Assembly (NCBI GenBank): GCA_021792615.1 | Contig: JAJYUJ010000006.1 | Location: 1 to 64,000, forward strand | Direction of reading: 5' to 3' | DNA from: a bacterium | Lineage (GTDB): Bacteria; JAMCPX01 | DNA: 64,000 nucleotides | Part shown: piece after piece, positions 42,112 to 54,198 of the stretch | Numbering within the stretch: position 1 is the stretch's first letter | Layout of the letters: each line of letters begins with the position of its first letter | Notes under the pieces: generated by a model | Told to the model about the DNA's origin: nothing | The model's input: only the letters and a program-made list of their open reading frames with translations | Databases searched by the model: none | Translations under genes and position numbers: made by a program

Positions 42112-42558
42112 ACCCAGGCATTTATCATTGTCATTTAAAGTTGAAAAGTGGACTTATATAAATTATACAAATTTGTTTAGCGGAAGAAATTGATTGCTAG
42201 AAACATATCAAACTCAACGAGTTTGTCATTCCTGCCCGTGGGCTTCTCCGCAGATATGCTTGAGCAGGAATCCAGTTCTTCAAAATAGTTCCCCGATTTC
42301 GCAGGGACAATGTCCATATTCTTAATGACCCGGTAATGACGGAGGTGTGAGAAACTGGATTCCCACTTTCGTGGGAATGACACAAAACCAGTGTAGATAG
42401 ATGTACATAATCTCTGTCACAGACGGTGATTTCCTCTCTTATTCTCAATGGAGCAGAGATAAGATTGAGAAACGGCATTATTTAGTAAACGAAGGATTAT
42501 TCGATCAAAAGTCAATCCACTTTAGAATTTTAAGCAACACCCAGGCATTTATCATTGT
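42112..42558. repeat. 20-bp direct repeat pair
   Basis: ACCCAGGCATTTATCATTGT occurs exactly at 42112-42131 and again at 42539-42558, 427 bases apart in the same orientation. The pair flanks the composite repeat. It may mark a local duplication or an insertion footprint. Confidence 0.7.
42225..42381. repeat. Composite dispersed element with inverted ends
   Basis: Begins GTCATTCCTGCCCGTGGGCT and ends in TTCGTGGGAATGAC; inside are GCAGGAATCCAGTT and its inverted partner AACTGGATTCC. The GTCATTCC/GGAATGAC ends match those of the element at 46171. It carries no ORF and looks like a non-autonomous REP/MITE-type element. Confidence 0.7.
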
Positions 42559-50311: not shown

Positions 50312-50323
50312 TACAAAATTGTA
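50312..50323. promoter_or_regulatory. Palindrome TACAA-N2-TTGTA near the amtB start site
   Basis: TACAAAATTGTA, 4-15 bases downstream of the sigma-54 element toward the gene. The position around the transcription start would suit repression. Confidence 0.5.
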
Positions 50324-50326
50324 ATG

Positions 50327-50342
50327 AGCAGTTTATATGCCA
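50327..50342 (-). promoter_or_regulatory. Sigma-54 promoter of distal amtB
   Basis: TGGCATATAAACTGCT on the minus strand keeps GG at -24 and GC at -12 with exactly 10 bases between, close to the consensus TGGCAC-N5-TTGCA. The ATG is 42 bases downstream. Confidence 0.7.
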
Positions 50343-50364
50343 GCGCCCGTACGGTCATTCTATG

Positions 50365-50374
50365 ACAATTTTGT
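50365..50374. promoter_or_regulatory. Palindrome ACAA-N2-TTGT upstream of amtB
   Basis: ACAATTTTGT lies about 23 bases upstream of the -24 element. It has the same half-sites as those at 50312, 50386 and 54158. Confidence 0.5.
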
Positions 50375-50385
50375 TGCACTTAATC

Positions 50386-50397
50386 TACAAGTTTGTA
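50386..50397. promoter_or_regulatory. Palindrome TACAA-N2-TTGTA upstream of amtB
   Basis: TACAAGTTTGTA, about 44 bases upstream of the -24 element; an activator-binding site is the likely role. Confidence 0.5.
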
Positions 50398-50432
50398 TGG
50401 CGGTAACATAAAAGGCCGGGAGAAAAAGGGGG

Positions 50433-51158
50433 TCAAAGGATTAAGCCGGAAAATGCGGTAAACACCTGCTTACTCGTTTTGTTCAACAGACCGCTATATT
50501 TTTTTGTATCTCCGAGTATCATGGAAACATCGATGCTCGTTTTCAAGGTATCCAACTCTGCTTTGTATTCATGAATCCATGCCTTTATATCCGCTTCTCT
50601 GGTCTCAATATGAAACTGCAGGCCATAGATAGTGTCTATTCTGAACGCCTGATTCGCATAGAGCTGCGAACCCGCAAGCACAACGGCGTCGCCGGGAAGA
50701 TCAAAGGTGTCCCCATGCCATTGAAACACCTTCATGGTTGCAGGATTGCCTTTGGCAGCTTCAACTGAAGCAAAAAGACTGTCGTTTGGCGCCTGCGCTG
50801 TAAAATGTATATCATACCACCCGATCTCTTTTGTTCCGCCTTTGTATACCCTTCCGCCCAGTGCCTGGGCTACCATCTGGGAACCAAGGCATATCCCGAT
50901 AACCGGCAGTTTTGCGTCCCGCGCCTTCCTGATAAGCGAGAGTTCTTTTTCGATAAACGGATATTTATCTTGTTCATAAACACCCATGGGACCTCCGAGG
51001 ATGATAAGAGCGCGGTAATCCGCTGCATCGTGCGGAATCCTGTCCTTCCACGTATCTATATAAATGTAGGGAATACCTCTGTCTGCCAGGACATTTTGTA
51101 TCGTGCCGAGTCCCTCAACGCTTATATGCCGTATGACTGCTACCGGTTTATTCATCAT
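50433..51158 (-). CDS. Class I glutamine amidotransferase (GMP synthase-like)
   Basis: 241 residues. The triad cysteine is in LPVIGICLGSQMVAQALGGR near residue 93 and the histidine and glutamate in IYGLQFHIETREADI near residue 183. LIILGGPMGVYEQDKYPFIE near residue 50 forms the oxyanion region. It is a stand-alone amidotransferase that would hydrolyse glutamine for an unknown acceptor, or act as a gamma-glutamyl hydrolase. It starts 2 bases after the second amtB stop, between two amtB genes and near glnA, so a role in glutamine turnover or nitrogen scavenging is a reasonable inference. Confidence 0.88.
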   Translation of the reverse strand: MMNKPVAVIRHISVEGLGTIQNVLADRGIPYIYIDTWKDRIPHDAADYRALIILGGPMGVYEQDKYPFIEKELSLIRKARDAKLPVIGICLGSQMVAQALGGRVYKGGTKEIGWYDIHFTAQAPNDSLFASVEAAKGNPATMKVFQWHGDTFDLPGDAVVLAGSQLYANQAFRIDTIYGLQFHIETREADIKAWIHEYKAELDTLKTSIDVSMILGDTKKYSGLLNKTSKQVFTAFSGLIL

Positions 51159-51160
51159 GG

Positions 51161-52480
51161 CTACATATTATATCCTTCTTCACCGTGCTGTGTTACATCA
51201 AGTCCGGATATTTCATCTTCACGCGATACCCTGATGCCCATCGTTTTATCAAGCACCTTAAGGATTATTATGGTCAGGACAAAGCAGTATACTGCTATCA
51301 CCAAAACAGCCATTACCTGTGTAAAGAACAGCTTATCGCCTCCGTAAAACAACCCGTTTGCACCTGCAGCGTTGACTGCTAAACTTGCAAAAAGTCCCGT
51401 TGCCAATACGCCCAATACACCGCCGACGCCATGAACACCGACAACATCAAGGGCATCATCATAACCAAATTTGAATTTTAAATTCACCGCATGGTAACAT
51501 AAAGCTCCTGCTGCAAATCCGATAATGATAGCTGCAACCGGAGAAACGAACCCGGATGCAGGAGTAATCGTTGCAAGACCAGCAACAGCACCACTTGCCG
51601 CACCCAGCATAGTAGGCTTTCCATTTTTGAGCCATTCAAAAACAACCCAGCCCAGTGTGCCTGCAGCCCCTGCAATATTGGTAACGACGAATGTTGATGT
51701 TGCCAGCGCACCTGCCGATAGGGCACTGCCTGCATTAAACCCGAACCATCCGAACCACAGCAATGCGGTACCGAGCATGGTCATGGTAAGGTTATGCGGC
51801 ATATACCGTGCTTTCCCATAATTATGCCTCTTGCCAATGACAAGGACAGCGGCAAGCGCGGATATACCGGAACTCAGATGAACGACCAGTCCCCCGGCAA
51901 AATCAAGGACGCCGAATGATTTTAACCAGCCGCCATTCCCCCAGACCCAGTGCGTTACCGGATCATAGACGATTGTCGACCATACGATGGTAAATACCAA
52001 AAAGGTGCTGAACTTCATCCGCTCTGCAAATGCACCGGTTATCAGTCCGGGCGTTATAATTGCAAACATCATCTGGAATACCATAAATGCCTGATGGGGA
52101 ATGGTCGGTGCATAAACAGGATCAGGGGTAAGTCCTACATGGTTAAGGCCAAACCAGCTTAAACTGCCGATAATACCATGGATGTCGGGACCGAAAGAAA
52201 GGCTGTACCCCCAGAGGACCCATTGAATGCTGATCACCGCAAGGAGTATAAAACTGTGCATAATGGTAGCAAGGACGTTTTTTTTACGTACCATACCGCC
52301 GTAAAACAGAGCGAGCCCGGGTGTCATGAGCATGACGAGTGCTGCGGCTGCAAGTACAAACGCAGTATCTCCGGAATTTATTGTATGCGCGGTATCGATG
52401 GTCCCCGATACATTTGCGAATGCAATTGACGGTATGGATACAACGATAAAACTCATGATCCCTGATAAAATTTTTTTCAT
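51161..52480 (-). CDS. amtB: Ammonium transporter (proximal copy)
   Basis: 439 residues from ATG 52480 with GGGGGAG before it; the frame is open to 52528 but the extra residues are charged and precede the signal peptide. Signal peptide MSFIVVSIPSIAFANVSG-like, then eleven helices. Twin histidines lie in FAGGLVVHLSSGISALAAVL and DVVGVHGVGGVLGVLATGLF. Tail EISGLDVTQHGEEGYNM as in the other copy. No sigma-54 element was found in its 153-base upstream gap, so it may depend on read-through from glnA. Confidence 0.96.
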   Translation of the reverse strand: MKKILSGIMSFIVVSIPSIAFANVSGTIDTAHTINSGDTAFVLAAAALVMLMTPGLALFYGGMVRKKNVLATIMHSFILLAVISIQWVLWGYSLSFGPDIHGIIGSLSWFGLNHVGLTPDPVYAPTIPHQAFMVFQMMFAIITPGLITGAFAERMKFSTFLVFTIVWSTIVYDPVTHWVWGNGGWLKSFGVLDFAGGLVVHLSSGISALAAVLVIGKRHNYGKARYMPHNLTMTMLGTALLWFGWFGFNAGSALSAGALATSTFVVTNIAGAAGTLGWVVFEWLKNGKPTMLGAASGAVAGLATITPASGFVSPVAAIIIGFAAGALCYHAVNLKFKFGYDDALDVVGVHGVGGVLGVLATGLFASLAVNAAGANGLFYGGDKLFFTQVMAVLVIAVYCFVLTIIILKVLDKTMGIRVSREDEISGLDVTQHGEEGYNM

Positions 52481-52590
52481 CTCTCTCCCCCTTGTGCATT
52501 CACGGTCATCATCTCTTGATCTATTCATAGGGTGAAAAAGGCATAGATAGAGACTGACACGGTTTACAAATACTGTTCTTTTCTTATGGT

Positions 52591-52618
52591 AGAGGGGCGG
52601 TTCAGGAACCGCCCCTTT
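52591..52618. terminator. Hairpin downstream of glnA
   Basis: GGGGCGGTTC and GAACCGCCCC form a perfect 10-bp core stem, extended by a few weaker pairs, 16 bases past the glnA stop. On the minus strand the following bases (TCTACCATAAG) are not T-rich, so termination may be partial, letting some transcripts continue into amtB. Confidence 0.6.
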
Positions 52619-52633
52619 CTTACAAACGCTAAT

Positions 52634-54046
52634 TTATGCGTCGAAATATAAACTAAACTCCAGCGGAACCGGTCTCAGTTTAACCGGGTTAACCTCTGCT
52701 TTGGTTTTATATTCGATCCATGTTTCAATAACATCAGACGTGAACACATCGCCTTTCAGCAGGAATTCGTGGTCCTTCTTCAATGCATTGAGTGCTTCTT
52801 CGAGGCTGCCGGGTGTGCTCGGTACATTCTTCAATTCCTCGGGTGAAAGCCCGTAGATATCCTTATCGAGCGGCTCACCGGGCTTGATCTTGTTCTGGAT
52901 ACCGTCAAGACCCGCCATGAGCATGGCTGAAAATGCAAGGTAACTGTTGGATGCCGGGTCCGGGAACCGTACCTCTATTCTCTTTGATTTCGGACTCGGT
53001 GAGTACATCGGTATTCTGATGGAGGCCGACCTGTTCCTGCTCGAGTAAGCGAGGTTTACCGGTGCCTCAAACCCCGGGACAAGTCTCCGGTAAGAATTCG
53101 TGGTCGGGTTGGTAAATGCACAGATTGCCGCCGCATGTTTGAGTATGCCGCCGATATAATGCATCGCAAGCTCACTCATGCCGCCGTATCCGTTTCCTGC
53201 AAACAAGGGCTTGCCGCCTTTCCAGATGCTCTGGTGCGTGTGCATACCCGATCCGTTGTCTCCGAAGAGGGGCTTGGGCATAAATGTTGCCGTTTTACCA
53301 TTTTTGTGTGCGATGTTCTTGACGACATGCTTATACCACATGACACTGTCACCCATGCGCAACAAGGAATCGAATACCATGTCTATTTCCGCCTGTCCGC
53401 CTGTTGCAACCTCATGGTGATGCTTTTCTATCTTCAGTCCTACATTCTCCATTGCTGTTACAATCTCGCTCCTGATGTCCGTCTGTGAGTCGGTCGGGGA
53501 TACGGGGAAATAACCTTCCTTATACCGCGGCTTGTAACCGAGGTTCGGGTTCTCTATCCTGCCGGTGTTCCACTGTCCTTCCACCGAGTCTATAGAGTAA
53601 TATCCCTCGTTAACGCTCTGGCTGTATCGTATGTCATCGAATATAAAAAACTCCAGCTCCGGACCAAAATAAGCTATGTCACCAATGCCTGTTGATTTTA
53701 AATAATTCTCTGCCTTTCTGGCTATATTTCTCGGATCCCTTGTATAATATTCCTTTGTTATCGGGTCCTGTATGTTGCAGATGATGCTGATCGTCGGTTC
53801 CTGCATAAAAGGGTCGACCATAGCGGTTGATGCGTCCGGTATAACGAGCATATCACTTGCGTGAATCGGCTGCCATCCCCTGATACTGCTGCCGTCGAAA
53901 CCCAGACCTTCTTCAAAAATATCCTCATTTAATTCGTGTACCGGTGCCGTAAAATGCTGCCATGTCCCGATGAAGTCCAGGAACTTCATGTCTACATAAC
54001 GTATCTTCTTCTCCTCGATAAGCTTTAAAACATCTTTTGGTGTCAT
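52634..54046 (-). CDS. glnA: Glutamine synthetase type I
   Basis: 470 residues from ATG 54046 with an AAGAGGAGG ribosome-binding site; an upstream codon at 54070 is less likely. Active-site motifs: [20 protein letters not shown] near residue 52, the ATP/metal stretch [20 protein letters not shown] near residue 265, and [20 protein letters not shown] near residue 340. The tyrosine in [13 protein letters not shown] near residue 397 matches the adenylylation site of GSI-beta enzymes. Assimilates ammonium in the cytoplasm. Sigma-54 promoter upstream, with the activator gene just before. Confidence 0.97.
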
Positions 54047-54077
54047 AGTACCTCCTCTTTTTTTATACAAATTTTAA

Positions 54078-54093
54078 TGCACATAACATGCCA
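54078..54093 (-). promoter_or_regulatory. Sigma-54 promoter of glnA
   Basis: TGGCATGTTATGTGCA on the minus strand keeps GG and GC 10 bases apart and matches the consensus in TGGCA and TGCA. It is 32 bases upstream of the glnA ATG. Confidence 0.75.
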
Positions 54094-54157
54094 TTTCCCG
54101 GTGTCAACAATAATATCCGGCTAACGCGATAAAATACATTTTTGTTACAATATAACA

Positions 54158-54167
54158 ACAATTTTGT
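54158..54167. promoter_or_regulatory. Palindrome ACAA-N2-TTGT upstream of glnA
   Basis: ACAATTTTGT about 65 bases upstream of the glnA -24 element, identical to the site at 50365. The surrounding 60 bases are AT-rich with more ACAAC/GTTGT pieces (for example CAACA-TTAT-TGTTG at 54175-54188). Confidence 0.5.
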
Positions 54168-54198
54168 ACATATACAACATTATTGTTGCTTTACTGTA

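Follow-up and report, generated by a model that had tools for sequence, protein, structure and literature searches.

Tandem ACA-N4-TGT Sites at σ54 Promoters of Nitrogen-Assimilation Genes, with a Neighboring NifA-Type Activator as Their Predicted Binder

Introduction

Which protein recognizes the short palindromes that recur in front of glnA and an ammonium transporter gene at a locus where the gene beside glnA encodes a NifA-like activator, and what would that protein do there? The locus belongs to a bacterial genome (GCA_021792615.1, 99.55% complete), of which we analyzed positions 1 to 64,000 of contig JAJYUJ010000006.1, hereafter the window. The minus strand carries the series miaA, NifA-like activator gene, glnA, amtB1, a gene for a glutamine amidotransferase domain protein, and amtB2 (Table 1); the amidotransferase domain gene (50433−51158) is also found near glnA or amtB in several genomes of the family. 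The comparison set consists of nine family genomes, this one and eight relatives, all metagenome assemblies labeled "bacterium" or Deltaproteobacteria. Going by the isolate names, our guess is that they come from acid mine or tailings sites.

Table 1. Genes, predicted promoters, and sites of the glnA−amtB2 locus; centers are relative to the predicted transcription start
Feature	Position in window	Strand	Remarks
NifA-type enhancer-binding protein (GAF, AAA+, Fis-type HTH), 533 aa	54199..55800	-	proposed binder; Pfam GAF, Sigma54_activat, HTH_8; TIGR01817
glnA upstream site 1, ACAATAATGT	54177..54186	-	center about -114; conserved in relatives
glnA upstream site 2, ACAAAATTGT	54158..54167	-	center about -95; 19 bp from site 1; glnA palindrome of the original prediction
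glnA upstream site 3, ACAAAAATGT	54136..54145	-	center about -73; 22 bp from site 2
predicted σ54 promoter of glnA, TGGCATGTTATGTGC	54079..54093	-	kept in 9/9 genomes
glnA, type I glutamine synthetase, 470 aa	52634..54046	-	Pfam, TIGR00653
amtB1, ammonium transporter	51161..52528	-	terminator-like hairpin in front; no site in this genome
class I glutamine amidotransferase domain protein	50433..51158	-	between the two amtB genes
amtB2 degenerate distal half-site, CCTTTTATGT	50406..50415	-	19 bp from next site; TGT half conserved at that spacing
amtB2 upstream site, ACAAACTTGT (TACAAACTTGTA)	50387..50396	-	center about -75
amtB2 upstream site, ACAAAATTGT	50365..50374	-	center about -53; 22 bp from previous site
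predicted σ54 promoter of amtB2, TGGCATATAAACTGC	50328..50342	-	
site over predicted amtB2 transcription start, ACAATTTTGT (TACAATTTTGTA)	50313..50322	-	center about -1.5
amtB2, ammonium transporter, 438 aa	48969..50285	-	

Palindromes and Promoters at glnA and amtB2

As the original prediction had it, σ54 promoters of the GG-N10-GC form stand before both glnA and the distal ammonium transporter gene, amtB2. Four ACAA-N2-TTGT palindromes accompany them, three near amtB2 (starting at 50313, 50365, and 50387) and one near glnA (54158), and two of the four are extended to TACAA-N2-TTGTA (50312−50323 and 50386−50397). This observation is confirmed. The two upstream regions together span 299 bases, in which 0.027 copies are expected, and not one of 20,000 dinucleotide shuffles reached four. 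The further claim that, among the intergenic gaps read, the palindrome occurs in these two regions only needs a small correction, since the window contains five copies (1.23 expected); the fifth, ACAAATTTGT, lies at 42167−42176 in another intergenic gap with neither a partner nor a σ54 promoter and is probably due to chance.

A background frequency across the genome had been named as the result that would speak against the palindrome, and single sites formally fail this check: across the genome ACAA-N2-TTGT occurs 65 times and the reversed control 70 times, with four copies of TACAA-N2-TTGTA, two of them in the glnA/amtB2 locus, against one in the control. We therefore discarded single-motif genome counts as evidence, as they are at background level and uninformative alone. 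With the 10-mer at background and an unpaired copy at 42167, a lone palindrome says little, and the signal lies in the arrangement of the sites; pairs, as shown below, have strong enrichment and turn up only at nitrogen genes. Other single ACAATTTTGT-type sites of this genome (G000), in the mraZ-like region of contig C7 and on contigs C36, C38, C46, C32, C13, C18, and C71, fall within genes or lack a σ54 promoter or partner and were taken as chance.

A Phased Element Conserved in the Family

Comparison of upstream regions in the eight relatives redraws the element itself. Where the original prediction saw a core of ACAA-N2-TTGT, the family keeps ACA-N4-TGT, often as TACA-N4-TGTA, in helically phased tandem copies at fixed steps of 19 and 22 bp. 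Apart from the start region, all that the glnA upstream regions have in common is the σ54 promoter and a set of three ACA-N4-TGT copies, spaced start to start by 19 and 22 bp (23 in G007), in DNA that has otherwise diverged. One copy is degenerate in G002 and one in G003, and site 3 or a close variant of it is present in all nine genomes. The single glnA site of the original prediction, correct for ACAA-N2-TTGT, thus becomes three under the relaxed core (54136, 54158, and 54177). In front of amtB, two copies lie 22 bp apart (21 in one case) at about −75 and −53, with a TGT half-site 19 bp further up. Among the 55 full sites, A and T predominate at the four central positions, and the flanking T and A of TACA-N4-TGTA are favored, not fixed. 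The 19- and 22-bp spacings would place the sites roughly on a single side of the double helix.

In the genome searches, which used strict and one-mismatch patterns, the paired arrangement is far more selective than the single site. The 22-bp pair (ACA-N4-TGT-N12-ACA-N4-TGT) occurs at 13 places in the nine genomes, each before glnA or amtB (control, 2), and the 19-bp pair (N9 spacer) at eight, seven before glnA and one before a P-II gene (control, 0). Ahead of −24/−12 promoters, the conserved sites stand in phased tandem some 50−160 bp upstream of the predicted start, and TGGCA-type σ54 promoters (TGGC-N9-GC) are found at every target, namely, glnA, amtB, the P-II gene, and a permease operon. 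The amtB1 copies of G002, G006, and G008 carry sites, and no site was found upstream of amtB1 in our genome. The glnA upstream regions of about 20 distant genomes contain no site pairs; glnB-glnA of G018, considered as a possible Aquifex-like case, was dropped when no site was found.

Targets Outside the Locus

The original description of the regulon as local is too narrow, since the same sites also stand before a P-II gene that lies on a different contig; its description as a σ54 nitrogen regulon with a shared palindrome is supported. In G007, a blind search met the 19-bp pair some 120 bases ahead of a P-II gene. The second, glnK-like P-II paralogue (MKMIVAIIKPFTLDKVK... in most genomes) was found in seven genomes, each time with a σ54 promoter and one or more full sites, and it has the 19-bp pair with at most one mismatch in all five genomes searched for that pair. 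In our genome this gene is unlinked to the locus (G000:C23, site 49860−49888, gene from about 50055). Compared with glnA and amtB, glnK has weaker sites, and a third, glnA-type site could not be convincingly made out there. Neither the motif nor a convincing σ54 promoter stands before the first P-II gene (MLKKIEAI...).

In three relatives the 19-bp pair, with one mismatch, and a σ54 promoter precede an operon for a secreted protein and an amino-acid permease, which in our genome comes after the P-II gene. The conserved secreted protein (about 250 aa, ...AWETTEYWTPC...) has no Pfam or NCBIfam match (L187 4842−5591 on G000:C23; also L182, L183, and L186); paired with the permease, it is a candidate for a new nitrogen-uptake component. 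We note that genes read from their sequences as an arsR-like regulator and an arsenical pump ATPase-like protein diverge from the P-II gene of our genome (L187 477−3618).

The Neighboring Activator as Predicted Binder

The activator encoded beside glnA scores 566.5 bits on the nifA model TIGR01817 (cut-off, 528.85) and has the GAF-AAA+-HTH order, and the family activators carry the GSFTGA or GAFTGA loop of σ54 activators. Its gene lies directly upstream of glnA in nearly every family genome, with full-length copies that are 80−99% identical in six relatives and split copies in two. All seven full-length family proteins have the same recognition-helix region, ITQRQLGYKI. Their sole cysteine sits in the AAA+ domain (residue 263 in our genome), which leaves them without the redox cysteines known from NifA, AnfA, and VnfA. 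No nifH above the cut-off was found in the nine family genomes by a search that did detect the nifH of G030. By model the protein belongs to the NifA family, but neither the sites nor the content of the genome marks it as an activator of nitrogen fixation.

The NifA site TGT-N10-ACA, from which the original prediction rightly distinguished the motif, is absent from the glnA and amtB2 upstream regions and present at nifB of Methylococcus, Rhizobium etli, and Rahnella, which are true NifA targets. The nifH promoters of G030 and of the Nitratidesulfovibrio vulgaris plasmid have instead TACAAAAGTGTA and TACAAAAATGTA, respectively, each with a σ54 promoter and no TGT-N10-ACA, and the activators of both pass the NifA model. 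These promoters suggest that nifH of Desulfovibrio-type genomes may be under an AnfA/VnfA-type site. A weaker second copy lies 17−18 bp on in both nifH upstream regions (L139 10034−10175 and L246 6055−6180). The amtB and glnA sites of G030 stand without a recognizable σ54 promoter. The G022 activator, at 50% identity, carries another recognition helix, and the motif is absent at the amtB of that genome.

Taken together, the adjacency to glnA, the score above the NifA cut-off, the sites at the nifH promoters of relatives, the published AnfA/VnfA sites discussed below, the invariant helix, the G022 case, and the lack of an NtrC at cut-off level make the adjacent GAF-AAA+-Fis activator, as the original prediction had proposed, the best-supported candidate for the protein that would bind these sites.

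Alternative Explanations

We weighed three other readings of the sites. That they are chance products of AT-rich intergenic DNA might be argued from the single sites, which are at genome background, and from the unpaired site elsewhere in the window; against it, the dinucleotide shuffles never reached the observed number, and the exact spacing is maintained across four genera while the surrounding DNA has diverged. For the paired sites this reading is already refuted, and we give it practically no weight. Alternatively, the sites could be enhancers for another σ54 activator, such as an NtrC-like response regulator, with the neighboring gene a bystander. NtrC is the usual activator of glnA and glnK, about 17 proteins in the genome match the AAA+ activator domain, so that others could in principle bind the sites, and NtrC-type proteins score up to 449 bits. 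This best score is, however, below the NtrC model cut-off of 558.6, which no protein reaches; the gene beside glnA in the relatives is the NifA-type one; its nif-linked relatives have TACA-N4-TGTA before nifH; and the site resembles that of AnfA/VnfA, not the NtrC palindrome. We regard a bystander role for the neighbor as improbable.

The original prediction had also raised a repressor, and the palindromes might then be operators through which glnA, amtB, and glnK are shut off when ammonium is plentiful. One site does cover the predicted amtB2 start and is maintained there in several amtB promoters, but the upstream sites, which lie in phased tandem in the usual place of enhancers, call for no separate repressor. 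No exact site covers the glnA or glnK start, and the locus has no linked gene for a repressor. A repressor seems to us very improbable, less probable still than another activator, and we retain the adjacent NifA-family activator as the predicted binder.

Comparison with Known Systems

The motif, which the original prediction set apart from the NifA and NtrC sites, does not lack a known binder, since TACA-N4-TGTA is of the published TAC-N6-GTA type. AnfA of Rhodobacter capsulatus recognizes TAC-N6-GTA in two direct repeats (PMC7294313), and VnfA1 of Azotobacter vinelandii recognizes GT(T/A)C-N6-GTAC, mostly as two sites per promoter (PMC9542535). Like the family activator, AnfA and VnfA are GAF-AAA+-HTH proteins; they act at σ54 promoters from tandem TAC-N6-GTA or GTAC-N6-GTAC sites (PMC7294313, PMC9542535). 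The tandem TAC-N6-GTA arrangement is present here, as TACA-N4-TGTA at amtB2 and as the core ACA-N4-TGT everywhere, with the outer T/A partly kept. AnfA and VnfA have conserved GAF cysteines and switch on alternative nitrogenases (PMC7294313), whereas the family activators lack GAF cysteines, no nifH was found in the family genomes, and the targets are glnA, amtB, and glnK. Membership in the AnfA/VnfA group thus fails on the cysteines, and the likeness is one of site type by published description.

Among solved structures, the DNA-binding domain best matches 2m8g_X, which we take to be Nlh2, and the GAF domain best matches nlh1. Nlh1 and Nlh2 of Aquifex aeolicus are likewise NifA-type GAF-AAA+-Fis activators. 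Aquifex reportedly has no nitrogenase, and AQ_218 is said, in work by Studholme and colleagues from 2000, to bind about 100 bp upstream of glnBA. Nlh1 (AQ_218) is thought to serve nitrogen assimilation, not fixation (PMC9866876). Our activator appears to work like Nlh1 but with AnfA/VnfA-type sites; it differs in belonging to another phylum and in that comparing genomes allows the site, the tandem spacing, and a multioperon regulon (glnA, amtB, glnK, and the permease operon) to be defined.

In Desulfovibrio vulgaris, DVUA0143 has an AnfA/VnfA-like N-terminus and is predicted to control the nif operon, and DVU1949 has a predicted nitrogen-metabolism regulon of nine operons (PMC4641369). Both are one-component activators, like the family protein, and divide fixation and assimilation between them, whereas here one NifA-type protein appears to run assimilation alone. 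The N. vulgaris DP4 activator is presumably the DVUA0143 orthologue.

Proposed Mechanism

From the sites, their spacing and conservation, their confinement to nitrogen genes, the σ54 promoters, and the synteny, we infer binding and activation, and we consider it highly probable that the palindromes serve as upstream activator sequences, or enhancers, of the adjacent NifA-family activator acting as a general regulator of nitrogen assimilation. By analogy with what is known for the protein family, activator dimers would occupy the ACA-N4-TGT (TAC-N6-GTA type) sites 19 and 22 bp apart on one DNA face, oligomerize, loop to σ54 RNA polymerase at the −24/−12 promoter, and drive its opening with ATP. 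In our genome, the predicted targets are glnA, amtB2, and the unlinked glnK-like P-II gene, which points to a role in general nitrogen assimilation; with no nitrogenase found in these bacteria, ordinary ammonia assimilation is apparently what the activator serves. Its input is presumably nitrogen status, sensed as 2-oxoglutarate or P-II through the GAF domain, and the P-II gene being itself a target suggests feedback.

Four of the nine amtB promoters have an exact copy over the predicted start (about −6 to +4), and two more have one with a single mismatch; at glnA and glnK no exact copy occupies that place. This extra amtB copy may act as a built-in brake once the activator reaches high levels. 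We offer as a suggestion only that it limits amtB in the manner proposed for E. coli glnAp2, where an NtrC enhancer pair is joined by extra sites nearer the promoter that are proposed to limit transcription (PMC3870243). There, however, the activator and site are different ones, and here the extra site lies over the amtB start, not at glnA. The broader history, in which a former nitrogenase activator lost its redox cysteines and nitrogenase targets, kept AnfA/VnfA-type sites, and took over from NtrC as the main activator of nitrogen assimilation throughout the lineage, with the site over the amtB start as a self-limiting brake, is a tentative proposal that we hold to be possible, at somewhat less than even chances.

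Significance

For a lineage represented solely by metagenome assemblies, the analysis predicts a nitrogen-control circuit whose sites are placed to the base. It indicates that automatic annotation of a protein as the nitrogen-fixation activator NifA need not imply nitrogen fixation, and it would tie an AnfA/VnfA-type DNA site to general ammonia assimilation. The circuit thereby bears on which role came first for NifA-type activators, assimilation or fixation.
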